In this document: positions 7,104 through 26,343 of the stretch, in pieces
Layout of the letters: every line of letters starts with the position of its first letter
How positions within the stretch are numbered: position 1 is the stretch's first letter
Assembly: GCF_947493595.1 (NCBI RefSeq)
Contig: NZ_CANLRL010000005.1
Span: 179,493 to 243,492, forward strand
Source: an uncultured Shimia sp.
GTDB lineage: Bacteria > Pseudomonadota > Alphaproteobacteria > Rhodobacterales > Rhodobacteraceae
Direction: 5' to 3'
Length of the DNA: 64,000 nucleotides
Made by a program: the position numbers and the translations under genes
Notes under the pieces: generated by a model
Told to the model about the DNA's origin: nothing
The model's input: the letters and a program-made list of their open reading frames with translations, nothing else
The model's database searches: none

Positions 7104-8345
7104 TCAGGCTCTCGCGGAGACACCGTTTTGGTAGGTTTGCAGGTCCGCAAACAGGGCCTGTCCTGTAGGAACATTTTGTCGATCGCAAAACTCCCGCCAA
7201 ATTGCGCCAAACGGGAGGTCCTTGAACTCCTCGGTCAACACAAGCCGGCTTGTGAAATCCAAATTGTCTTCGGCCTGCCTTAGATCCGCGATTGGCAACA
7301 GCAACGCGCGTAGAAGTGCTTTTTGCATGTTGCGTGTGCCAATTACCCAGGCCGCTGTTCTGCTAATGGTCGCGTCAAAGAAATCCAGCCCGATGTGCGT
7401 GCGTCCCAATAGGTCAGATGTCACCAGCTCCTGCGCCATCATGAGGATATCGTCGTTTTGCAAAATGACGTGATCGCTGTCCCAGCGCATGGGCCGAGAG
7501 ACATGCAGCAAAATTTCATCGACGGACAGGGCGACAGAACTCAGTTTGTCGGCAACGTTTTCAGTCGGATGGAAGTGCCCCATGTCGAGGCAAAGTACGG
7601 TGCTGTTGCGGATCGCATACCCAAGATAGAACTCATGGCTTCCAACCGTGCAGGCTTCCACACCGATCCCGAACAACTTACTTTCCACTGCATCAAGCAT
7701 GCGTTTTTTGTCGAACTTGGTTTCCAGCATGGCATCAAGAGAGGCTTCCAGCCTCGCCCGCGCTGCCATTCGATCGATTGGGTTGTCCTTGTAGCCGTCA
7801 GGCACCCAGATGTTGTTGATGGCCGGGCTGCCAAGCGCGTCCCCCATCTGTGCAGCGATCTCACGGGTGCGTTTGCCATGTTCGATCCAGAATTCACGAA
7901 TGCCTTGGTCTGGATGGCTCAAAGTCAGGTTATCGTCAGCCTTGGCGTGCGCAAAAAACGTCGGATTGAAGTCAAGGCCGATACCCTGTGACTTTGCCCA
8001 GTCGACCCAGGAGGCGAAGTGATGAAACTCGATCTCATCACGGTCCGGAGTTTCATCTGTGTCGAGATAGATCGCGTGCAGATTCAGACGGTGACTGCCG
8101 GGAATCCGCGAATACGCAAAATCCAAATCGGCACGGAGTTGTTCGGGCGACGTAGCCCGGCCCGGGTGGTTGCCTGTCGCTTGTATGCCGCCTCCTGAGG
8201 TCCCGGTTTGCTTTTCAAATCCCACGACATCATCGCCTTGCCAGCAATGCATCGAAATCGGGATTGTTGCCAAGGCTGCCAGCGCAGCCTCGGTGTCCAC
8301 ATTCCAGTCGGCAAAATGTGCCTTGGCTGATTCATAAGGTGTCAC
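7104..8345 (-). CDS. rhaI: L-rhamnose isomerase (E. coli RhaA type)
   Basis: A 413-residue enzyme that converts L-rhamnose to L-rhamnulose in the cytoplasm. It aligns along its whole length with E. coli RhaA (419 residues), including SMHCWQGDDVVGFE, GGIQATGN, RLNLHAIYLDTDETPDRD, VESKLFGIG, LDMGHFHPTE and HIGLDFFDA; the last motifs carry the metal ligands. The start is GTG at 8345, with GGGAGGA five bases before it. It lies 21 bases after rhaD in the same transcript. The R. leguminosarum name rhaI is used because the rest of the cluster follows that scheme. Confidence 0.95.
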   Translation of the reverse strand: MTPYESAKAHFADWNVDTEAALAALATIPISMHCWQGDDVVGFEKQTGTSGGGIQATGNHPGRATSPEQLRADLDFAYSRIPGSHRLNLHAIYLDTDETPDRDEIEFHHFASWVDWAKSQGIGLDFNPTFFAHAKADDNLTLSHPDQGIREFWIEHGKRTREIAAQMGDALGSPAINNIWVPDGYKDNPIDRMAARARLEASLDAMLETKFDKKRMLDAVESKLFGIGVEACTVGSHEFYLGYAIRNSTVLCLDMGHFHPTENVADKLSSVALSVDEILLHVSRPMRWDSDHVILQNDDILMMAQELVTSDLLGRTHIGLDFFDATISRTAAWVIGTRNMQKALLRALLLPIADLRQAEDNLDFTSRLVLTEEFKDLPFGAIWREFCDRQNVPTGQALFADLQTYQNGVSARA

Positions 8346-12547: not shown

Positions 12548-12591
12548 AAACTACTATTGGCCTGTAGCAGGCTTGAGACGGGGATATGCAT

Positions 12592-14136
12592 ATGAGCCAT
12601 CTCGCTCCATCCAGTGACAGCAGCGCGGCCCAAGCCCCTATTCTGTCTTTGGATAAAATCACCAAGTCCTTTCCCGGTGTCAAAGCGCTGGATGGCGTTG
12701 ATCTGCATCTTTATCCCGGCGAGGTCACCGCGCTGATCGGCGAGAACGGCGCGGGCAAGTCCACAGTTGTGAAAACACTGACGGGAATTTATCAGCCCGA
12801 CGGCGGGCGTATCATTATGGATGGTCAGCCTGTACATTTCTTGGCACCCCAAGATGCCGCTGATGCCGGTGTGACCGCTATTCACCAAGAGACTGTACTG
12901 TTTGACGAGCTAACGGTGGCGGAAAACGTATTTATTGGGCACGCTCCCAAAACGCGGTTTGGTCTGATTGACACAAAGGCCATGCACCTCAGGACAGCGG
13001 AAATCCTTACGTTAATCGGCGCAAACATTGACGCTGGTGTTAAGCTCAAAGATCTGGGGATTGCGTCTCGCCACCTTGTGGCCATCGCCCGCGCCCTGTC
13101 GATTGAGGCGCGCGTGGTGATTATGGACGAGCCGACTGCCGCTCTCAGTCAAACGGAAATCGAAGAGCTCTACGAATTGGTCGACACCCTGAAAGCTCAG
13201 GGGAAAGCAATCCTGTTTATTTCCCACAAGTTCGATGAGATCTTTCGGATCGCGGACCGATACACGGTTTTCAGAGACGGGCAATTTGTCGGGGACGGCA
13301 AAATTGCGGACGTTCAAGAAAGCGATCTCGTTCAAATGATGGTTGGCCGTGCGGTGGAGCAACTATTTCCCAAGCGCCACGCTGAAATCGGTGCTGAAGT
13401 TCTTAAGGTCGTTGGTTACAGCCACCCAACAGAGTTCGAAGACATCAACTTCACTCTGAGGCAGGGGGAGATCCTCGGTTTTTACGGGTTGGTTGGTGCC
13501 GGGCGGTCCGAGTTTATGCAATCTCTGATTGGCATCACACGGCCCTCCAAAGGCGCGGCGCGTATTGACGACAAGGTGCGGGTCATCCGCTCGCCAGCCG
13601 ACGCGATCAAGGCGGGGATCGTCTATGTTCCTGAGGATCGGGGCAAACAAGGCGCGATCCTGGATATGCCCATTTTTCAGAATGTGACCTTGCCGTCATT
13701 GAACAAAACCTCTCGTGACGGCTTCCTTCGACTGGCGGAAGAATTTGCGCTCGCGCGTGAGTACACGGAAAGACTGGATCTACGTGCGGCTTCGTTAGAC
13801 ACAAACGTTGGCGCGCTGTCCGGCGGCAATCAGCAAAAGGTGGTTATTGCCAAATGGCTTGCCACCCAGCCCCGCGTCATCATTCTCGACGAGCCCACAA
13901 AAGGGATCGACATTGGTTCCAAAGCGGCGGTGCACGATTTTATGTCGGAACTTGCGTCACAGGGCCTGTCGGTGATCATGGTCTCCTCGGAAATCCCAGA
14001 GGTTCTGGGGATGTCTGACCGGGTCATAGTGATGCGCGAGGGCCGAATGGTGGCGGAGCTGGAAGGCGCAGAATTGTCACCGGAAACGCTGGTGCGACAC
14101 GCTGTTGGCATTCAGGTTGAAGGAGATGCGGCATGA
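12592..14136 (+). CDS. rhaT: L-rhamnose ABC transporter, double ATPase
   Basis: A 514-residue sugar-type ATPase with two ABC domains. The first has Walker A GENGAGKST and Walker B VVIMDEPTAAL; its signature region is degenerate, reading LGIASRHLVAIARAL. The second has the degenerate nucleotide loop GLVGAGRSE and the intact signature LSGGNQQKVVIAKWL with VIILDEPTKGID. This asymmetry is normal for the RbsA/AraG class. It powers rhamnose import through RhaP/RhaQ. Of two ATGs (12586, 12592) the second has better spacing from GACGGGG. Its stop overlaps the rhaP start (ATGA). Confidence 0.94.
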   Translation: MSHLAPSSDSSAAQAPILSLDKITKSFPGVKALDGVDLHLYPGEVTALIGENGAGKSTVVKTLTGIYQPDGGRIIMDGQPVHFLAPQDAADAGVTAIHQETVLFDELTVAENVFIGHAPKTRFGLIDTKAMHLRTAEILTLIGANIDAGVKLKDLGIASRHLVAIARALSIEARVVIMDEPTAALSQTEIEELYELVDTLKAQGKAILFISHKFDEIFRIADRYTVFRDGQFVGDGKIADVQESDLVQMMVGRAVEQLFPKRHAEIGAEVLKVVGYSHPTEFEDINFTLRQGEILGFYGLVGAGRSEFMQSLIGITRPSKGAARIDDKVRVIRSPADAIKAGIVYVPEDRGKQGAILDMPIFQNVTLPSLNKTSRDGFLRLAEEFALAREYTERLDLRAASLDTNVGALSGGNQQKVVIAKWLATQPRVIILDEPTKGIDIGSKAAVHDFMSELASQGLSVIMVSSEIPEVLGMSDRVIVMREGRMVAELEGAELSPETLVRHAVGIQVEGDAA

Positions 14137-15110
14137 GCTATCTCAAGTCACGCGAGGCCATCCTGTTTGGCGCTATTGGTTGCCTGCTGTTGGTCGTCGC
14201 AACCCGGTTTCCTGGGTTTGTCGCACCGCAAAACCTTGTCGCAGTGTTCACTGACACGTCTCCCTTGATGATCCTTGCAGTTGGTCAAATGGCGGTGATC
14301 CTGACCCGCTGTATCGATTTGTCCGTGGCTGCCAACCTGGCTTTGACTGGCATGGTCTGCGCCATGATCAATGTGGCCGCTCCAGATTTGCCGGTTGCGG
14401 TCATCTTGGCTGTGTCCATTGCGATGGGGGCGATGTTGGGGGCAATCAATGGTATTCTGGTTTGGAAGCTGAGTATTCCGCCAATTGTGGTCACGCTTGG
14501 GACCATGACCATTTTTCGCGGCATTATTTTCCTTTTGACTGAAGGAAAGTGGATCAATGCCCACGAAATGAGCCCTCACTTCACCGGGTTCCCGCGCGCA
14601 GACATTCTGGGAATGTCCGTGTTGGGGTGGATCGCCGTCGTGGTCTCGGTTGTCATGATCGTGGCAATGTCCCGCACCTCATTGGGGCGATCGATCTACG
14701 CCGTTGGGGGCAACCCACACGCAGCAGTTTACACAGGAATAGACGTGGGCAAGACGCAGTTTGCGGCCTTTGTGATATCCGGGATGCTGGCTGGCCTGAC
14801 AGGATATCTTTGGGTGGCGCGGTATTCGGTTGCCTATGTCGATATCGCCGGAGGATTTGAGCTTGATGTTGTTGCTGCCTGCGTAATCGGCGGGGTCTCC
14901 ATTGCCGGCGGGGCCGGCACGGTTGCTGGAACACTTCTGGGCGCCCTGTTCCTTGGTGTCGTAAAAAACGCGCTTCCCGTAGTGGACATTTCTCCCTTCT
15001 GGCAGCTCGCCATCTCCGGCGCGGCCATCATCATTGCGGTTGCTTTCAATGCGCAATCGGGACGCTCCAAAGGGCGCGTTATTCTGAAATCTGCGGAGCA
15101 CGCACAATGA
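14133..15110 (+). CDS. rhaP: L-rhamnose ABC transporter permease 1
   Basis: A 325-residue inner-membrane permease of the BPD_transp_2 (RbsC-like) family, with 8-10 hydrophobic segments and the characteristic segments RCIDLSVAANLALTGM, TLGTMTIFRGI and GGNPHAAVYTGIDV. It overlaps rhaT and rhaQ by four bases at each end (ATGA), so the membrane proteins are translated in a coupled way. It forms the channel together with RhaQ. Confidence 0.93.
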   Translation: MSYLKSREAILFGAIGCLLLVVATRFPGFVAPQNLVAVFTDTSPLMILAVGQMAVILTRCIDLSVAANLALTGMVCAMINVAAPDLPVAVILAVSIAMGAMLGAINGILVWKLSIPPIVVTLGTMTIFRGIIFLLTEGKWINAHEMSPHFTGFPRADILGMSVLGWIAVVVSVVMIVAMSRTSLGRSIYAVGGNPHAAVYTGIDVGKTQFAAFVISGMLAGLTGYLWVARYSVAYVDIAGGFELDVVAACVIGGVSIAGGAGTVAGTLLGALFLGVVKNALPVVDISPFWQLAISGAAIIIAVAFNAQSGRSKGRVILKSAEHAQ

Positions 15111-16108
15111 GCCTTGTCGAAAACGCCCCCCGTCACATTCCCGATCGACTGCGTCATCCGCTTCAGGAAAAGCTGGTGCGTTGGGAAAGCCTGTTGCTGG
15201 CCGTTGCGGTGGCCATATTCATCCTGAACAGCCTGGCATCACCATATTTCCTAAACGCATGGAACTTGTCGGACGCCACATTCAACTTCACTGAGAAAGC
15301 AATGATCGCCTTTGCCATGGCGCTGCTGATCATTTCAGGAGAAATTGATCTCTCGGTAGCAGCCATTATTGCGCTTGCGTCAACCGCGATGGGGGTGGCT
15401 ATGGAAATGGGCGCGGGTACACCCGCGTTGGTGCTGGTTGGCCTGACCACAGGTCTCATGTGTGGGGCCTTTAATGGTGCCCTTGTGACCAAGCTTGGCC
15501 TGCCATCCATCGTAGTCACCATCGGCACTATGAGCCTGTTTCGCGGCATCAGCTATATCGTGCTTGGTGATGGCGCCTTCAGAGGCTATCCGAGTTCATT
15601 TTCCTGGTTTGGCCAGGGCTATGTTTTCTGGGTCATCTCCGTTGAACTTGTCATCTTTGCCATTCTTGCTGTCGTGTTTGGTGTTCTGCTTCACAAGACT
15701 AATTTTGGGCGCATGGTCTACGCAATTGGCAACAATCCTACCGGAGCGCTTTTTTCCGGGGTGCGTGTTGACCGGGTCAAAATGACCCTGTTCCTACTCA
15801 CTGGTTTGATGTCCGGATTGGCGGCCGTTTGCTTGACATCCAGGCTTGGCTCGACCCGTCCTTCAATCGCTTCGGGTATGGAACTTGAGATCGTCACCAT
15901 GGTTGTGCTGGGGGGCGTGAATATTCTGGGGGGATCAGGCTCCATTCCAGGCGTTGTAATTGCGGCCTTTGTGATGGGTTTGGTTACTTTTGGACTTGGG
16001 CTGCTGAATGTACCCGGCATCGTCATGTCGATTTTCATAGGCTTACTTCTGATCGGCGTGATTGCATTGCCTCGTCTCTGGGCAATGTGGCGCAACAACG
16101 CGAGGTGA
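15107..16108 (+). CDS. rhaQ: L-rhamnose ABC transporter permease 2
   Basis: A 333-residue second RbsC-like permease. It shares with RhaP the motifs [48 protein letters not shown] and [14 protein letters not shown], and has about nine membrane segments. It begins within the rhaP stop codon (ATGA) and ends four bases before the rhaU ATG. The two distinct permeases imply a heterodimeric channel. Confidence 0.93.
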
Positions 16109-16112
16109 GAAC

Positions 16113-16427
16113 ATGGAAAAGGTGGCATTCTGCATGAAACTTCACGCCGACAAAATTGATGAATACCGTGAGCGCCATGACGCGATATGGCCGGAGCTTG
16201 TGGGCTTGCTAAAAGACGCGGGCGTGGAAGACTATTCCATACACCTCAACCCCAAGACACATCAGCTTTTTGGTGTGTTGTGGCGTCGTGAGGATCACGG
16301 CATGGACCACCTTCCAGACCATCCAGTAATGAAACGCTGGTGGGCCTATATGGCCGACATTATGGACACAAATGCCGACAATAGCCCTGTGTTGACAGAT
16401 CTTGAGCAAGTGTTTCACTTGCCATGA
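16113..16427 (+). CDS. rhaU: L-rhamnose mutarotase
   Basis: A 104-residue protein matching RhaU/RhaM along its length: [49 protein letters not shown] and the C-terminal [14 protein letters not shown]. It speeds interconversion of alpha and beta rhamnose so that the isomerase receives its preferred anomer. His and Tyr/Trp residues of the active pocket are present. ATG 16113 is chosen for GAGGTGAGAAC just before it; an upstream ATG (16062) lies within rhaQ. It overlaps rhaK by four bases. Confidence 0.95.
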
Positions 16428-17809
16428 CCGATCTGACTATGGCCCGTAAAAATGTCGCCGTCATTGACGTAGGCAAGACCAACGCCAAGCTGGCTCTCGT
16501 CGATGGCAACACGTTGACGGAAGTGGCGGTTGTCACCCGCCCGAACACGGTCATTCCCGGTCCGCCTTATCCACATTTTGATCTTGAGGGGCATTGGCAG
16601 TTCTTTCTGGAAGCGCTGAAGGCCTTCAATACGAAGTATGGAATCGATGCGATTTCAATCACCACGCATGGTGCTTCCATTGTGCTTCTACAGGCTGATG
16701 GCACTCTGGCCACGCCCATGCTTGACTACGAATTTGATGGCCCCAATGCCCTGGCTGAAGCATACGATAAGCTTCGACCGCCATTCTCTGAGACTGGTTC
16801 GCCAAGGCTTGCTGGCGGGCTAAACGTAGGCGCACAACTGCATTGGTTGTTGAAAACCGATCCGGCTTTGTTGTCGCGTACGGAACATGTGATCACCTAT
16901 CCCCAGTACTGGGGTTTTCGCCTGACCGGGAATATGGCTTGCGACGTTACATCCCTTGGGTGTCATACAGATCTTTGGAACCCGTGGAAGAGGCAGCCAT
17001 CTTCGTTGCCCGCAAGACTGGGAATTTCGGAAAAACTTGCGGCATCGCGGAGGTCTTCCGAGGTTTTGGGGACAGTCAGCGACGGGATAAGTCGCATCAC
17101 CGGTTTGCCCGACAACACACCGGTTCTCTGCGGAATTCACGACAGCAACGCCTCTCTTGTGCCCTATCTAAACCACGACGATGGCCCAACTTCAGTTGTG
17201 TCTACTGGAACTTGGGTTATCTGTATGGCGCTTGGTTCTCCCAATTCCAAAGAACTGGATTCCGATCGGGACACATTGGTAAACGTAAACGCATTGGGTG
17301 AACCAGTGCCTTCGGCCCGCTTTATGGGCGGGCGCGAGTATGAGATCATTCTAAACGGTTCACTGAGCATCCCTACAGATGAAGATCGCCGGGAAGTTCA
17401 CGAGAAGCACATAATGTTACTACCTTCTGTAGTGTCGGAGAGCGGCCCATTCCGCGGGCAAAGTATGAGTTGGTCGCGCGAGCCTAAAACCGACGGGCAA
17501 AAGGTGTATGCACTTTCATTGTATCTGGCGTTGATGACCGACTTCTGTCTTGGGCTGATCGGCGGGACAGGCGCAACTGTCGTCGAAGGCCCTTTCGCCA
17601 AGAACGGTGACTATGTGGATATGCTTATGACATTGCGCGAGCGTGGGGTCGCAACGGCTAAGTCGGCAACTGGAACCAGTGTGGGGGCGGCGATGCTTTA
17701 TCAGGAACTTGCTTCACCAAATTCAAACGTAGAGAGATGCGGATCGCCCAATCCAATGCTGCTTGAGTATGCGCGGAAATGGCAGTCATCCGTCACTCAT
17801 TGCCAATAG
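16424..17809 (+). CDS. rhaK: L-rhamnulokinase-type sugar kinase (FGGY)
   Basis: A 461-residue FGGY carbohydrate kinase. The opening phosphate-binding strand is [31 protein letters not shown] and [10 protein letters not shown] mark the ATP-binding domain. It phosphorylates rhamnulose at O-1, or rhamnose in the alternative R. leguminosarum scheme, where RhaK is also needed for transport. It begins inside the rhaU stop (ATGA) and is the last gene of rhaRSTPQUK. No terminator is obvious after it. Confidence 0.92.
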
Positions 17810-18336: not shown

Positions 18337-19599
18337 TCACAAATTTAATCGCATTCGTAGCCCCAGAACCCAAGTGTCATCTTCAGCAAGTCCGGGGTTT
18401 TTCAGGTACTGTGCGTCTACGGTGATCGCGAAATTGTCAGAGACATCAAAGCGATAAAACATCTCTGCCGTTGTCTGGTCCGACAAAGACGCATCACTTG
18501 GATCGGCAACGGTCACACCGAACCCAAACAGGTCATCGTACAACCCAGGCCGCCACATTAACCCAGCATTTACAGCACGTCGCGCGATGGGTGCACTGCC
18601 GTCCGACCAGCCAAGACGTCCAAACAGCATCAAGTTTTCGTTAAATGTCACATTGCCCGATAAAATGGCCCCGTGACTGCTCGGTACGCCCGCGTCTTCG
18701 CGGTCATCAACATGGAAAACGCCAAGGTGCACATTGGTCAAATACCGCTGGTCTTTTGCGGGAGTCCACCCAATTTCACCGTAGGTATAAAACTCGGCTC
18801 CACCCGGAAACCAATTCACATCTGTAAGCGAGCCATTCGCGTCACTCACAATACCAAGCGCATAGATATGATCGGTGATGAAACCGCCACCGGCAATGCC
18901 AAATCCCGGATCGGGGATCGGCAGAACCGGGCTGAACAGGATCGAGTAATTCTGAAAGGTCGTGCGGGGATTCACATATCCAAGGATGTCAGAATAATCC
19001 CCGGGATCGATCCGCCCGGCCACTAATCCCGCCCGTCCTCCAGCCAGTACCTGCGACCAATAGGCGACCGACAGGCTGGTGTCGGTGTCCCCGAACGTCA
19101 CGCCTGTTGCGCCGACATATCCAATCTGGCCGGCGAGGCTGGCAGGCGAAATTGCCTGACCCAGAAGGTGTCGGTTCTCTAGGATAAACACGAGGCTGCC
19201 AGTGTTCGGGCCGTCCCTGTTCAAAAGACTCCAGTTGCCGATGATGCGGGCCTGCCCCGATGCCGATTGGTCCAATCCTGTCAGGCTGTGCGTCGATTGC
19301 TGATACAGCGCCTGATAGTCAAACGACAGCGACAGCCCGGACGATTTCTGAAATCTGCTGAGGGCTTCTTCGGTCGGGTCCAGAGCCCGATCCAAAGACG
19401 GCCAACGCGACTCTTCCAGACGCCGTAACCGATCCTGTTCTTGCTGCGCCTGGGCAGATGCAGGACCACCGATGGATGCTGAGGCAGCAGCTTCAAGCGC
19501 GTTTTGAGGCGAGTTTTCTTGAGCGTCAGCCGTTGCGCTCAACAGCAACGCTGTCAGAAGCCCAGAACAGGCTGAAATCAAGATTTTGTGGCCATTCAT
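18337..19599 (-). CDS. OprB-family carbohydrate-selective porin (outer membrane)
   Basis: A 420-residue protein. Residues 1-26 are a signal peptide (GLLTALLLSATADA). A Gln/Glu-rich helix follows (AQAQQEQDRLRRLEESRW), then a beta-barrel with alternating hydrophobic/aromatic strands. LTGLDQSASGQARIIGNW, FGRLGWSDGSAPIARRAVNAGL and the end FYRFDVSDNFAITVDAQYL are OprB-like. It should let small solutes, probably sugars, cross the outer membrane. ATG 19599 overlaps the stop of the HlyD gene (ATGA), so the two are co-translated. The final residues RLNL lack the usual terminal Phe. Confidence 0.8.
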   Translation of the reverse strand: MNGHKILISACSGLLTALLLSATADAQENSPQNALEAAASASIGGPASAQAQQEQDRLRRLEESRWPSLDRALDPTEEALSRFQKSSGLSLSFDYQALYQQSTHSLTGLDQSASGQARIIGNWSLLNRDGPNTGSLVFILENRHLLGQAISPASLAGQIGYVGATGVTFGDTDTSLSVAYWSQVLAGGRAGLVAGRIDPGDYSDILGYVNPRTTFQNYSILFSPVLPIPDPGFGIAGGGFITDHIYALGIVSDANGSLTDVNWFPGGAEFYTYGEIGWTPAKDQRYLTNVHLGVFHVDDREDAGVPSSHGAILSGNVTFNENLMLFGRLGWSDGSAPIARRAVNAGLMWRPGLYDDLFGFGVTVADPSDASLSDQTTAEMFYRFDVSDNFAITVDAQYLKNPGLAEDDTWVLGLRMRLNL

Positions 19600-20519
19600 A
19601 GGTAGTTCATCCATGTGGTCATGCGTAAGGTAATCTGTCGTATTACTCCCAAAGCGCCAACCTGGTCTGTGAGCACCGCGCCTTGCCCCGATGCACCCGG
19701 GGGCAAGACGATGTCGCCAAGATCTACCTCTAGCCCGACCACGTATTGCGTGTCCCGCACTTCAGGCACACGGGGAGACAGCCCGGTACCAACATATTCG
19801 GCATCAGGTGACGACAGGTACAAGCGCGCAACCTTGGCTGAGAATGTCTGTCCGGGAAGATTGCGGAAAACAACCTCGGCAGGTTGGCCAGCCCGAACGT
19901 TGCGGATGCCGTTCTGCTTTAGGATCAGATTCACAAAGGGCCTGTCCACATCGAGAAACGCCATAACCGGCACACTGGCGGAAACCCGGTCGCCCGGCAG
20001 CAATGTGACAGCCGGTACGATCCCTTCCATGGGCGCAACAACGACCGTATTTTTCAAATCCTCTTGCGCGATGCTCAGCTGCGCGTTGGCAACCGCCACG
20101 TCCGCTTCGAGCTTGTCAATTTCGGCTTGCGCAACCGTGTTGGACGTCAGTAGTTGCCTCTTTCTGCTCAGCACATCCTCGGCAAGCGACACGCGCGCCT
20201 GCGCCTGCCGAACTGCCGCCTCGTATTTCAGTGCGCCGATGCGGAACAACACATCGCCCTGTTTCATTTGCCTCCAGGATACGGCAGGCACATCTTCGAC
20301 AACGCCGGACACGGCAGGGGCGATCTGAACGGATGACACCGTTACGGTGACCGGGCCAACAGGCGCGGTCCAGTTCAGCGGTAAGAACAGCACAATATTC
20401 GCTATCAGCCAGACGGCAACTGGTGAGAGCTTCATCCACAAGTGCCATTTTTTCAGAACGCCAATCTTCACCAACACCCACAGGATCGCCAACCAGACGC
20501 CGATGATAATCATGATCAT
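19596..20519 (-). CDS. HlyD-type membrane adaptor (YiaV/EmrA-like)
   Basis: A 307-residue membrane-fusion protein: two hydrophobic N-terminal segments (MIMIIIGVWLAILWVLVKIG and SPVAVWLIANIVLFLPL), a first half-lipoyl motif near VQIAPAVSGVVEDVPAV, a short coiled coil (AAVRQAQARVSLAEDVLSRK...), a second half-lipoyl (VVVAPMEGIVPAVTL) and a beta-barrel domain. E. coli YiaV has the same build and also pairs with a DUF3302 protein. ATG 20519 has AGGGAGGACATTGC before it and overlaps the upstream DUF3302 stop; its own stop overlaps the porin start. No transporter partner is next to it. Confidence 0.85.
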   Translation of the reverse strand: MIMIIIGVWLAILWVLVKIGVLKKWHLWMKLSPVAVWLIANIVLFLPLNWTAPVGPVTVTVSSVQIAPAVSGVVEDVPAVSWRQMKQGDVLFRIGALKYEAAVRQAQARVSLAEDVLSRKRQLLTSNTVAQAEIDKLEADVAVANAQLSIAQEDLKNTVVVAPMEGIVPAVTLLPGDRVSASVPVMAFLDVDRPFVNLILKQNGIRNVRAGQPAEVVFRNLPGQTFSAKVARLYLSSPDAEYVGTGLSPRVPEVRDTQYVVGLEVDLGDIVLPPGASGQGAVLTDQVGALGVIRQITLRMTTWMNYL

Positions 20520-20763
20520 GCAATGTCCTCCCTGGCTACTGATTGAAGCGCCGCGTCCGGCGTACCTGCATAGGCCCAGATCAGGACCAGCGGGAAAAAC
20601 ACCCCGCCACCGATCAGCGTGACCCACCCTCCAATTGTCACGGCCGTCCTGTAGGGATGATCACGGGCGGTCCTGGCTAGCCGCCAACAAACACCAACAA
20701 GCCGACGGCCAACACGGCCATAAACCCCAATAGCCCCAATGCGGCATAATCCAAGCCTGTCAT
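20516..20763 (-). pseudogene. DUF3302 (YiaW-like) small membrane protein gene with a one-base frameshift
   Basis: The frame from ATG 20763 gives a hydrophobic MTGLDYAALGLLGFMAVLAV segment, then stops at TAG after 28 codons. A second frame, starting about there, reads ARTARDHPYRTAVTIGGW and continues with a second hydrophobic segment to a TGA that overlaps the HlyD start (ATGA). Joined, they match the YiaW layout (short helix, basic HPxxxA loop, GGWVxL helix). The total of 248 bases is one short of a whole number of codons, so one base is missing near 20680-20690: a mutation or a base-call error. Confidence 0.7.
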
Positions 20764-20803: not shown

Positions 20804-21205
20804 CTATTTCAGATCATCGACGGCCTTGACCTCAGGCACGCGTGCAAGCGCTTCGGCCATATCGGGGCTGCTCATCAGTTCGATCATCTGATAGTCGTTC
20901 AGCAACCCATCTCCCATGCGGCTGAGATAGAACGCCTGAATGAATGTCGGGTCATCGGGCAAGGAAACGGTGATGTAATTCTTGCCGTTACCAAGGCCCC
21001 AGTAATAGCTCAGAAGTTCGCCGCCAAGCTTCTCGATGCCGCTGCGTACGCTGGCCTCGCGGTCACCGGGCGAACCGATCAACATCTCCCAAGCAGGGCC
21101 ATTGGGTGTCCCGACAAACATGAACGTGCGGTTGTCGGTCGTTGCCTCGGCCATGGTCATGGATGCGGACGCGCCAAGAATTACTGAGAAAACAAGTGCC
21201 TTCAT
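20804..21205 (-). CDS. Secreted GYD-domain-like protein
   Basis: A 133-residue protein with a 19-residue signal peptide (MKALVFSVILGASASMTMA). The mature part resembles the GYD family, normally a cytoplasmic ferredoxin-like fold: RSGIEKLGGELLSYYWGLGNGKNYITVSLPDD, then a helix and an alpha-beta end. Function of the family is unknown; a secreted version is unusual. It is the last gene of a minus-strand set with the amidohydrolase (287-base gap that contains a stem-loop) and lies just before the DUF3302-HlyD-OprB set. Confidence 0.7.
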   Translation of the reverse strand: MKALVFSVILGASASMTMAEATTDNRTFMFVGTPNGPAWEMLIGSPGDREASVRSGIEKLGGELLSYYWGLGNGKNYITVSLPDDPTFIQAFYLSRMGDGLLNDYQMIELMSSPDMAEALARVPEVKAVDDLK

Positions 21206-21492: not shown

Positions 21493-23175
21493 TCATTGCT
21501 CCGGTGCTCCGGGAATAGAGTTTTCCAACGCTGCAGGGCGATCGGGGAACTCGGAGTGCTCGTCGTCGGGCGTGTCGATATCGGCATGCCAGGTGAACGG
21601 CTTGTCTCCGAGATCCAGATCGATTTCACCATCGGTGATGACCGGATAGCGGATCTGCTGACCAGGCTTCAAGTCGGGGACGGCCACACCGCCGTCAATA
21701 ATCACCTGACCACTGACTAGAACAAAAGGGATGCCTTTGGTGAACGACCCGTTCATTCCTTTTTTCATCGAGGACGTTTCGGTGATCGTGTCCGGATTGA
21801 AGATGGTAATGTCTGCAATCATACCTTCCTGCATTCGGCCACGTTCCTGCATCGGCTTGAGGCCAACACGAGAAAAATACTTGGCCGGGATGTAGGATGC
21901 ATTGTTGACGATCTCCATCAACGGAATGCCCTGTTCGCGCGCCTCGCGGAAGACGATGCCATAGGATCCCGAGTTTCGCGGGTGCCCGCCGTATTCACTG
22001 AAATCTGCATCAAAGGGGAGCGGCTCTCCATCGACGAGGTAGCCGACAATGTCGTTGGCGATGGCGATATCCTTCATGTGGAACCAGCGCTTGAGATCCT
22101 GATCGGGACGTACTTTGATGAAGATAGGCTTGCTGGGATCCTCTTTCTGCTGACGAAAAAATTCATCCTCAGACTCGTAGAGCTCGCCGGTGGCTGTGTC
22201 GAAGATATCGCGTGTCACCTTTATGTTGTTCCCTTCGATCTTGTCGGGCAACAGCTGCGGGGTTGCGATATTCGGGTTGCCGGTGACCGCCGGATAATAC
22301 TCGGCAAAGATGTTCATGCCGCGCCCCTGCAGGCGGCGGACCAGTTCGTAGATCTCCTCCCACCCCTGATTCTGGATGTGCGATACGATCAGTGACCCGT
22401 CCAGCGCGACGGCGTTGGCGATAACCTCGTTCGCGCCCAGAGAATAGTAGAGCGGCAGACTCTCGGTCGGACCAAAGCGGGTATGCGCGCCGAAATAGCG
22501 GTCATACTTCTTGGCCAGTTTCTGGAGCGCAAAAATTTCCTTGGGGAATGTGTTGTAGCCCATGTATCCCACGGTCGTATTCACGGTGATCGCCCCGGCG
22601 CGCAGACCCTTCTCATACATCGTCATGACTTCGGCAAGCTGGCCCTTGGACGGCACGTCCAACGCCCAACTGGCGTGACCGTCCTCCTTCTCGGCTGCGC
22701 CACGGGAGGCAAGGATATAGGTGGGATCGGAGGCAAGTTCGATCGGAACCCAATCCATTACGACACGGCGGATTTCTTCGTGCCCCATCCCGACTCCATA
22801 GTTGAGAAAGGATTTACCCTCGTACTTGTCATAAAACAGCTCGGCATCGGCGACGCCGCTTTCGGTGTCGAGGATTGTGGTCGTCCCGTCATGGGCCATC
22901 ATCTTCTGATCGAACGGACCAAAGGAATGCGAATGCGTGTTGATGAACCCAGGCGCAACGACATGACCGTTGGCGTCAATCTCCTTAGTGCCCCGAAGGG
23001 CATCTGCCGTGATTGACACAATCCGATCACCCTTGATGCAGACATTTCGCACCGCGTCAAAGTTGGTTTCAGGGTCCATCACCCTGCCGTTTACGATAGC
23101 GACGTCGCAGTCCTGGGCCGCAGCCATTCCTGCGACGAACGTCAACGCGGTTGAAAGTAGAAATCGATGCAGCAT
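21493..23175 (-). CDS. Periplasmic amidohydrolase, N-acyl-D-amino-acid deacylase-like
   Basis: A 560-residue exported member of the amidohydrolase superfamily (D-aminoacylase/DAN group). Residues 1-20 are a signal peptide (ALTFVAGMAAA). Then: VAIVNGRVMDPETNFDAVRN, the first metal site GFINTHSHSFG (HSH where HxH is expected), DGTTTILDTESGV, VSHIQNQG and the C-terminal TIFNPDTITETSS blade. It would hydrolyse N-acyl-D-amino acids or similar amides outside the cytoplasm; the actual substrate is unknown. Neighbours are a GYD protein downstream and the M19 dipeptidase remnant upstream, suggesting joint processing of an amide or D-peptide. Confidence 0.82.
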   Translation of the reverse strand: MLHRFLLSTALTFVAGMAAAQDCDVAIVNGRVMDPETNFDAVRNVCIKGDRIVSITADALRGTKEIDANGHVVAPGFINTHSHSFGPFDQKMMAHDGTTTILDTESGVADAELFYDKYEGKSFLNYGVGMGHEEIRRVVMDWVPIELASDPTYILASRGAAEKEDGHASWALDVPSKGQLAEVMTMYEKGLRAGAITVNTTVGYMGYNTFPKEIFALQKLAKKYDRYFGAHTRFGPTESLPLYYSLGANEVIANAVALDGSLIVSHIQNQGWEEIYELVRRLQGRGMNIFAEYYPAVTGNPNIATPQLLPDKIEGNNIKVTRDIFDTATGELYESEDEFFRQQKEDPSKPIFIKVRPDQDLKRWFHMKDIAIANDIVGYLVDGEPLPFDADFSEYGGHPRNSGSYGIVFREAREQGIPLMEIVNNASYIPAKYFSRVGLKPMQERGRMQEGMIADITIFNPDTITETSSMKKGMNGSFTKGIPFVLVSGQVIIDGGVAVPDLKPGQQIRYPVITDGEIDLDLGDKPFTWHADIDTPDDEHSEFPDRPAALENSIPGAPEQ

Positions 23176-23275: not shown

Positions 23276-24519
23276 TCACTCAACCCAATTGGCCTGATAC
23301 ACACGCATCAGGTTTTCACCGAGAAATCCCCGCACATCCTCCGGGCTCCAGCCGTGGACGTCCTCGAGCACCCTGACAACACCCCAGATATCCTGAGGTC
23401 GCGCAATCTGTGTCTGGCTCCCGTAACCCAATTCCGGCGGGTACGAGTCCGGGTTGCGCAAGACGAAATCCAAGGCGCTGACGTAAGCCTCGGCCGTCAA
23501 GTGGTCTGACCCGAAGCAAGTATGCTCGGCACCGACAAGTTCCTTGACGTAGTTGACGTGTCGCGCAACGTCTTCTGACCCAGCGTTGCCTTCCTTGTTC
23601 AGGAAACCACCCAACCCGTTGGTGCAGATGACCCCGCCGGTTTCTGCCACAGCGCGGACAACTTCGTCCGGTGCATTGCGCGGCAAATTATAGGCTCCGT
23701 ACGGGTTGGAGTGGCTCAGCATGATCGGCTTTGTCGAGACGCTCGCGGCATCGAGGCAGGTCTTGTTGCTCGAATGCGTGCAGTCCACGATCATGCCAAC
23801 CCGGTTCATCTCAGTAACAAGTTGAAAACCCTGCTTGCTCAGCCCCGCATCCCTTAACGGATCGACGCCACCGCCATCCGCCATGAAATTCCGGACGTTA
23901 TAGGCGAAATTCATTTGTCTGATGCCGAGTTGGTAATAGACATCGACCATTTCCATTCGCCCCCCAAGGCGTTAGAGCCCTGAAAGTTCAGCATGACAGC
24001 GAATTTGCCTTCGGATTTGGCTCTCCGCAGATCATCGACGGTTTCGACGAATTGATAACGGTCTGAGTTGGCGGCGTAGTATTCCAACGCCTTACCGATC
24101 CACTGGACAATCTGCAGCGGCTCGAACGTGTCATCGACAGCGGCAGTGTAAGACACCGCATCAAACGCGTGCTCGCGGGATCGTGCAACCATTGCTTCGT
24201 AGTCCGCGATCGTTCCGTCAACATACCCTTCCGGTGTGCCAGGGATCAGCGCATCGATTACAATTGCGTCCTTGTAACGCTCAATCACATCGATGTCGCC
24301 GGATCGTTCTTCTTCTGTCCGGGGTTCGACACCTTCGGACAATGTTTGTTTCTTGGCTTCGACCTCCTCGTCAGTAATTGCAAAGGCGGGGCTTATTGCG
24401 GACGACAAAGCCAGTGTCAGGAAAAGCAATGCAAGTTTCTTCAGATGATCAAGGGGGTATCGGAACAGGTCGTTTGATTGCTTTGATCCAGCAACTGCGT
24501 TGTCTGATTTATGTTTCAT
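23276..24519 (-). pseudogene. Peptidase M19 (membrane dipeptidase-like), frameshifted in a G run
   Basis: Two overlapping frames together make one M19 protein of about 414 residues. The first part has a signal peptide (LALLFLTLALSSAISPAFA) and runs to VMLNFQGSNALGG; the second reads MVDVYYQLGIRQMNFAYNVRN, then VDCTHSSNK, MLSHSNPYGAYNLPRN and FGSDHLT, the later metal and substrate motifs. The frames switch at six C's on the + strand (23960-23965); one extra G on the coding strand restores GRMEMVDVYY. The first metal motif (DGHNDLP in typical members) is replaced by IDALIPGTPEG. ATG 24519 is preferred over GTG 24528. Confidence 0.8.
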
Positions 24520-24570
24520 CGTAGGCACCTATTATGACCGGGATGGTCGTTTCTGTGATGCTTGAACCTG

Positions 24571-24940: not shown

Positions 24941-25972
24941 ATGACCACCGATCACACATTCAATCCGGGCAGCAAACTGCCGCTTGTGCGGGCCTCAGTG
25001 GCGGCTCCGGTGATTGCCGCATTGCAGACCGTGAATGTCGAACCGGCGTTTGTTCTGGACCCGCTCGGGTTGAATGAGGCGCAGATGATGGACCCTCAGA
25101 GTTTTCTTCCCCATGACGTGATCTATCAGGTTTTTCAGGCTGTATCCGAGGCAACCAATCCCAACTTCTGTGCATCGGTCGGACAAAACACCGACCTGGT
25201 TCAGTTCATCCCGCTCGGCGATATGCTGACCGAGGCATTGACGCTTGGGGGCTTTTTCACACGGTTTACGCAGGCCGTATCAAGGGAATCCAACGCGACG
25301 ACGCAATCCCTGCTTGTCGAAGAGAGCCACGCCTATTTCAGCGCCAGGAGAAGCTTTTGCCCCACAGTGTCCCCCGGACAGGCGGACGCGTTTCTGGCGA
25401 GTATTTGGATTTCGCTTCTGCACCGGGTTCTGGATTTCAGATGGGACCCCCACGAAATCATACTGCGGGTCAGCGACCCTGACGCGCTGCCCAAACAGTT
25501 TCACGGTGTCAAGCCCATCAAGTGCAGCCCCCAAGGGTACTCGATCAGGTTCCCATCCTCATGGCTGAGCTACAGCCTGACGCCACAGGTTCTGGAAAAC
25601 GCGCCGGATGTGCTGGCTCAGGGTCGTGACCTTGTCGCCCCAATCGACTTCCTCGCCGGGTTAGAAGGTTTGATAGGCAATCATCTCGCCACCCCCGGAT
25701 TCGGTGTTGAAAAACTCGCAAAGCTGTGCGGCATCCATCCCGATACGCTGAACAGCCGCCTGACAAAGTATGATCAGACGGCGTCGCAGGTCATCACAAG
25801 GCTCAAACGGGAACAGGCGGAAAAGCTACTACGGCAAGACGGGCATTCGGTGAACAACGTTGCAGCAGGGCTCGGCTATTCCGACCCTACGGCCTTTTCC
25901 AGAGCCTTTCGCAAATGGACAGGCATGTCGCCGTCTGCATTTCGAAGATCGCAAAAGGACCCGAAATCATGA
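24941..25972 (+). CDS. AraC-family regulator with arabinose_bd-type N-terminal domain
   Basis: A 343-residue regulator. The N-terminal ~230 residues resemble the OruR/ArgR-like effector domain (Arabinose_bd, e.g. PQSFLPHDVIYQVFQAVSEATNPNFCASVGQ). The C-terminal ~100 residues are an AraC double HTH (VEKLAKLCGIHPDTLNSRLTK and VNNVAAGLGYSDPTAFSRAFRKWTGMSPSAFR). It starts at ATG 24941 and stands 184 bases from the divergent small gene that opens the hydrolase cluster, so it is the likely regulator of that cluster. Its stop overlaps the DoxX start. Confidence 0.88.
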   Translation: MTTDHTFNPGSKLPLVRASVAAPVIAALQTVNVEPAFVLDPLGLNEAQMMDPQSFLPHDVIYQVFQAVSEATNPNFCASVGQNTDLVQFIPLGDMLTEALTLGGFFTRFTQAVSRESNATTQSLLVEESHAYFSARRSFCPTVSPGQADAFLASIWISLLHRVLDFRWDPHEIILRVSDPDALPKQFHGVKPIKCSPQGYSIRFPSSWLSYSLTPQVLENAPDVLAQGRDLVAPIDFLAGLEGLIGNHLATPGFGVEKLAKLCGIHPDTLNSRLTKYDQTASQVITRLKREQAEKLLRQDGHSVNNVAAGLGYSDPTAFSRAFRKWTGMSPSAFRRSQKDPKS

Positions 25973-26343
25973 CACTGGACATCATGATTGGCGTGCTGTC
26001 AGCGTTTTTCCTCTTTGCCAGTTCGATCAAGATGTTTGGATGGCAAAAGAAGATCTTCGACGTTCAATTGGGTATGTTCATTTCCTATGGCCTGAACCGG
26101 CAAATCATGCTTCTGGTCGGGTGCGTTGAATTGTTCGGAGCAACTGCGATCTGGTTTCAAGGATCGTGGGTGGGCCCGCTTGGGGCGCTCGCGCTTCTGG
26201 GCACATCGATCGGCGCCATCGGTTGCCATCTGATCTGGGATACCTGGAAAGACGGCATTCCCGCTATGATCACAGGCACACTGTCGGCCATCGTGGCATG
26301 GTCCGGCAAAGGCGCGCTGCTGGTGTTTATTGGCCTCGTTTAA
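25969..26343 (+). CDS. DoxX-like small membrane protein
   Basis: A 124-residue protein with four hydrophobic segments (IMIGVLSAFFLFASSIKMFGW, then RQIMLLVGCVELFGATAIWF, PLGALALLGTSIGAIGCHLIW, ITGTLSAIVAWSGKGALLVFIG), matching the DoxX-like layout. Role unknown; relatives accompany oxidoreductases. ATG 25969 overlaps the AraC stop (ATGA), so the two are co-translated. A SnoaL-like gene follows 22 bases later. Confidence 0.8.
   Translation: MTLDIMIGVLSAFFLFASSIKMFGWQKKIFDVQLGMFISYGLNRQIMLLVGCVELFGATAIWFQGSWVGPLGALALLGTSIGAIGCHLIWDTWKDGIPAMITGTLSAIVAWSGKGALLVFIGLV

Follow-up and report, generated by a model that had tools for sequence, protein, structure and literature searches.

An OprB-family porin gene in a secreted-hydrolase cassette of an uncultured Shimia sp., preceded by an HlyD adaptor gene and a DUF3302 pseudogene

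In Escherichia coli, the gene pairs yiaW-yiaV and yibI-yibH each encode a small DUF3302 membrane protein followed by an HlyD adaptor with two hydrophobic N-terminal helices, and no pump gene adjoins them. We found no function for the DUF3302-HlyD pair or for YiaV in the literature searched. The adaptors of tripartite efflux systems (EmrA, AcrA, MexA and MacA) are built from a barrel-sandwich, a hairpin and a beta-barrel, and adaptor hairpins dock on the periplasmic tunnel of TolC-type proteins. A third reference is the carbohydrate-selective porin OprB of Pseudomonas putida (PDB 4GEY). Here, we analysed a 64,000-nucleotide stretch of uncultured Shimia sp. DNA (the window), in which a first-pass annotation had described DUF3302, HlyD and OprB genes as a translationally chained set suggestive of an envelope-spanning path.

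The three genes and the lesions in DUF3302

The set comprises the following features:
18337..19599, minus strand: OprB-family outer-membrane porin, 420 aa, Sec signal peptide, intact.
19596..20519, minus strand: short YiaV-like HlyD adaptor, 307 aa, two N-terminal hydrophobic helices, intact.
20516..20763, minus strand: DUF3302 pseudogene; a stop codon at 20679-20677 replaces W29, and 10 bp are deleted between 20662 and 20661.

The DUF3302 frame starting from the ATG at 20763 ended after 28 codons at the TAG at 20679-20677. The Pfam DUF3302 match was located at 20555-20683, in a different frame from the one holding the start, and it covered positions 29-70 of the 77-position profile (PF11742) instead of running through it in a continuous frame. 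A nucleotide alignment with three intact relatives, from Falsiruegeria mediterranea (locus L032) and the genomes G121 (L069) and G249 (L070), revealed the nonsense change (Trp to TAG) and the 10-bp deletion, which falls within a conserved PGRVAAKRxHPYR loop. A programmed frameshift was rejected, because the relatives are single-frame and the window copy carries a nonsense change in addition to the deletion. A sequencing error is unlikely, as DUF3302 alone carries two different lesions and the M19 gene described below a third. In G007:C2 (L051, 13852-14330), another damaged DUF3302-HlyD remnant was observed: its DUF3302 match contains an in-frame TAG, and of HlyD there is a short fragment.

ATGA overlaps were present at both junctions (HlyD/OprB at 19599-19596; DUF3302/HlyD at 20519-20516), as the first-pass annotation had described, and HlyD and OprB are intact. 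Since DUF3302 is a pseudogene, this genome has no full-length DUF3302 whose translation the upstream ATGA could couple to that of HlyD, and this part of the proposed chain did not hold. HlyD can be translated alone, because a GGAGG ribosome site precedes its ATG. Nine other candidate ATGA junctions between same-strand ORFs were found in the window, and the rhamnose-type operon next to the set accounts for three; such an overlap is thus frequent here and is not special evidence for a complex.

The HlyD protein scored above curated cut-offs in profile searches (RND_mfp TIGR01730, 99.6 bits versus 94.9; HlyD_D23, 46 versus 30). Its AF2 model showed the barrel-sandwich, hairpin and beta-barrel of the adaptor family, with a hairpin (residues 97-125 and 131-156) shorter than in 375-aa relatives, and structure comparison matched it to EmrA, MacA and MexA. 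We call it YiaV-like also by its place directly after DUF3302, which is intact in the three relatives and the phylum sample and a pseudogene in the window. Unlike the tripartite efflux adaptors, it carries two hydrophobic helices at the N-terminus and lacks a pump. Indeed, no ABC, MFS or RND gene adjoined HlyD or OprB in the window cassette, in agreement with the first-pass annotation, and no energised inner-membrane transporter was found in the operon in the window cassette, L032, L069 or L070. OprB takes the place of the TolC-type outer-membrane factor. At the hairpin tip, the window protein kept the R and L of what we take to be the TolC-docking motif; the Ser of this presumed motif is Ala in all four relatives. 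Three TolC-type (OEP) proteins are encoded on other contigs of the window genome.

The window OprB matched PF04966 (E 2.2e-14; 54.1 bits versus a cut-off of 22.9), with the match limited to the C-terminal third. A sequence search of the PDB with this protein gave no match; by structure comparison, P. putida OprB 4GEY was the best PDB fold (E 4e-16), at about 14% identity. The AF2 model is of moderate confidence (pLDDT 71, pTM 0.72); together with the fold match and the profile score, it places the protein in the OprB family. As a 16-18-strand porin, OprB lacks a TolC-type periplasmic tunnel, and the TolC-type proteins of this genome are encoded elsewhere; both points speak against the proposed HlyD-OprB envelope path. 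Direct docking of HlyD on OprB is unsupported, though conceivable. Predicted N-terminal helices of OprB were considered as a dock for HlyD and rejected, as they also occur in OprBs without HlyD.

The hydrolase cassette and the relatives of OprB

Upstream of the three genes, we identified the following features:
20804..21205, minus strand: secreted GYD-domain protein, 133 aa (PF08734, E 6.6e-7, slightly under the cut-off).
21493..23175, minus strand: secreted amidohydrolase, D-aminoacylase-like, 560 aa (Amidohydro_3).
23276..24528, minus strand: M19 dipeptidase-like gene, frameshifted near 23965; the ORFs 23911-24528 and 23276-23956 both match M19.
24941..25972, plus strand: AraC-family regulator (HTH_18, Arabinose_bd), divergent from the cassette.
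25915..26343, plus strand: DoxX-like membrane protein (PF13564), a recurrent cassette accessory.

The amidohydrolase matched NF006560 with an E value of 2.5e-85, yet its 286.7 bits are below the cut-off of 340. A tblastn search with intact relatives split the M19 gene across two frames. By eye, neither the N-terminal metal ligands (HxD) nor the bridging Glu that we take to be typical of M19 seems to be present in the intact M19-like relatives. The N-termini of OprB, GYD and the amidohydrolase resemble Sec signals, suggesting that these cassette proteins are secreted. An AraC homolog was divergent from the cassette in all sufficiently flanked relatives save F. mediterranea, where none was found, and DoxX homologs stood at the corresponding cassettes in G029, G009 and G190.

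The window OprB stands at the end of this AraC-regulated-type cassette, like its close relatives. Six of these (G005, G029, G009, G190, G105 and G086; 60-74% identity) had no DUF3302-HlyD pair. They follow AraC, amidohydrolase and GYD genes, with M19, DoxX or DUF3299 in some; the G009 cassette has no GYD. Ten close OprB loci, the window included, had upstream flanks that could be read; HlyD was observed in four of them, so the pair is optional, and GYD, the most constant upstream partner, in nine. The claim that OprB is locked to HlyD was therefore not borne out; the constant partners are the secreted amidohydrolase, M19 and GYD proteins and AraC. In the pair-less genomes, the best adaptor matches reached about 24-36% identity. 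The G086 OprB is 85-86% identical to those of G121 and G249, yet G086 has no HlyD. In the OprB tree, the HlyD-bearing loci did not form one group; four gains or losses were needed, at least two of them forced by well-supported branches. At OprB, G190 shared the 4-base overlap, with GYD in the place of HlyD. More remote OprBs (about 29-35%), found in Ruegeria and Vibrio, likewise follow AraC and an amidohydrolase; those of Ruegeria conchae and Vibrio fortis are downstream of AraC, amidohydrolase and DUF3299. As the OprB relatives keep the hydrolases, often without HlyD, the stable association is that of porin and secreted hydrolases. In G009 (L047, 6830-16865), one run of genes after OprB encodes a pair of MscS-type channels together with a TolC-type OEP, an AsmA protein and a PPIase.

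The amidohydrolase context of the window OprB differs from the sugar-uptake context of carbohydrate-selective OprB. Next door (12586-17809, plus strand) and convergent with OprB lies a set of genes that resembles a rhamnose operon, with a sugar ABC transporter, a mutarotase-like protein and an FGGY kinase. This neighbourhood recurs in G010 (L048), where OprB is divergent and truncated by the end of the contig. A role as a rhamnose porin was rejected, because the rhamnose-type operon is convergent, other genera have the cassette elsewhere and only G010 repeats the neighbourhood.

An optional adaptor pair before oprB

Samples of 298 and 397 genomes of the family yielded the window-type adaptor in the window genome, G121 and G249, and F. 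mediterranea added a fourth case. The DUF3302-HlyD-OprB order therefore occurs in four genera of the family and is not unique to this genome. At all four loci, the pair is immediately upstream of OprB with the start/stop overlap retained, and no pump gene adjoins the set, so an adjoining pump is not a feature of the homologous loci. The F. mediterranea locus has M19 and GYD upstream; the G121 and G249 loci contain AraC, M19, a MauG-type dihaem peroxidase, GYD and an amidohydrolase. A single-module NRPS gene is convergent with the G249 cassette (L070, 11630-15595).

We consider it somewhat probable that OprB works as the uptake porin for the periplasmic hydrolases of this cassette, and that DUF3302-HlyD is an optional, pump-less adaptor pair placed before OprB and decaying here. 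Under AraC control, the operon would break down a small amide-bonded solute in the periplasm, and the locus would be its distal end. The solute would pass the outer membrane through OprB; in the periplasm, it would be processed by the secreted amidohydrolase and the M19-type protein, with the GYD protein as an accessory. In a minority of cassettes, DUF3302-HlyD, presumably an inner-membrane-anchored adaptor without a pump of its own, is placed immediately upstream of oprB; its link to OprB would be one of co-expression, and for any partner in the outer membrane, a TolC-type channel from another locus is a more likely candidate than OprB. With both DUF3302 and M19 broken, the cassette is decaying in this genome, and the three-part set does not function as first described. 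We infer the type of solute, the direction of uptake and the partner of the adaptor; gene context suggests the uptake role of OprB, which could serve export instead.

Three other readings were weighed. According to the first, DUF3302, HlyD and OprB form one pump-less path across the envelope, with HlyD contacting OprB. The order and overlap kept in four genera and the absence of a pump agree with it, as does the recurrence of an outer-membrane protein in the third slot elsewhere (TolC-type in G996, G953, G775 and G876). In addition, OprB starts without a clear ribosome site in the HlyD-bearing loci, so its translation may depend on HlyD. That the pair always directly precedes OprB hints that its tie is to OprB and not to the cassette at large. 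However, DUF3302 is dead in the window genome, HlyD is absent beside most OprB relatives, and the N-terminal helices of OprB are not specific to HlyD-bearing loci. We regard this path as quite unlikely.

The second reading takes HlyD and OprB as remnants of a dying locus that have lost their function in this strain. The two lesions in DUF3302 and the frameshift in M19 agree with it. The OprB of F. mediterranea (L032, 6921-8174), in the same arrangement, is interrupted by a stop at 7209-7211, so the cassette was lost repeatedly. A complete loss of function is nevertheless doubtful here, given the full-length open frames of HlyD, OprB, GYD and the amidohydrolase and the ribosome site retained by HlyD.

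It is very unlikely that DUF3302-HlyD serves an unlinked pump and merely shares the transcript. Elsewhere in the genus, as in many gamma-proteobacteria, canonical pairs are solitary, which fits such a role, but a linked or conserved pump was found at none of the four loci, and the partner has to be postulated. The uptake porin with an optional, decaying adaptor pair is the reading that we retain.

DUF3302-HlyD pairs in other proteobacteria and E. coli

DUF3302 was present in 44 of 399 genomes sampled across the phylum, directly upstream of an HlyD gene in nearly all loci inspected. The pair is a real unit, in line with the first-pass annotation, which treated such pairs as known. In most of these loci the gene after the pair was unrelated. 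A DUF1254-family gene directly follows it in the alpha-proteobacteria Rhizobium sullae, Microvirga ossetica and G821 (L072, L073 and L155).

In four genomes of other families (G996, G953, G775 and G876; loci L157, L161, L162 and L164), the gene after DUF3302-HlyD is a TolC-type OEP gene that overlaps the pair or lies at most about 20 bases from it, and scanning of the neighbours identified no pump. Like the window set, these triplets have an outer-membrane channel gene third; the channel is TolC-type there and an OprB porin in the window. We take the outer-membrane gene after DUF3302-HlyD across the phylum as a lead that may point to a pump-less module.

The E. coli adaptors differ from the window adaptor in length (about 375-380 versus 307 aa, with a shorter hairpin in the latter), and YiaV is about 26% identical to it. 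In comparison with YiaW and YibI, the window DUF3302 is broken, and an OprB gene follows the pair. The barrel gene near yiaV is yiaT (MipA/OmpV), which lies beyond yiaU and not directly after the adaptor. It is conceivable, though unlikely, that DUF3302-HlyD is a general pump-less module of the inner membrane and periplasm with interchangeable outer-membrane partners: TolC-type proteins in the four triplets, OprB in the window and perhaps a MipA/OmpV protein in E. coli. Such a module would provide a route through the envelope that is either passive or energised in another way. The OprB result mainly places an OprB subfamily with secreted-amidohydrolase cassettes. DUF3302-HlyD pairs themselves are widespread, and the recurrent channel gene downstream of them, with no pump identified, offers a concrete, testable handle.
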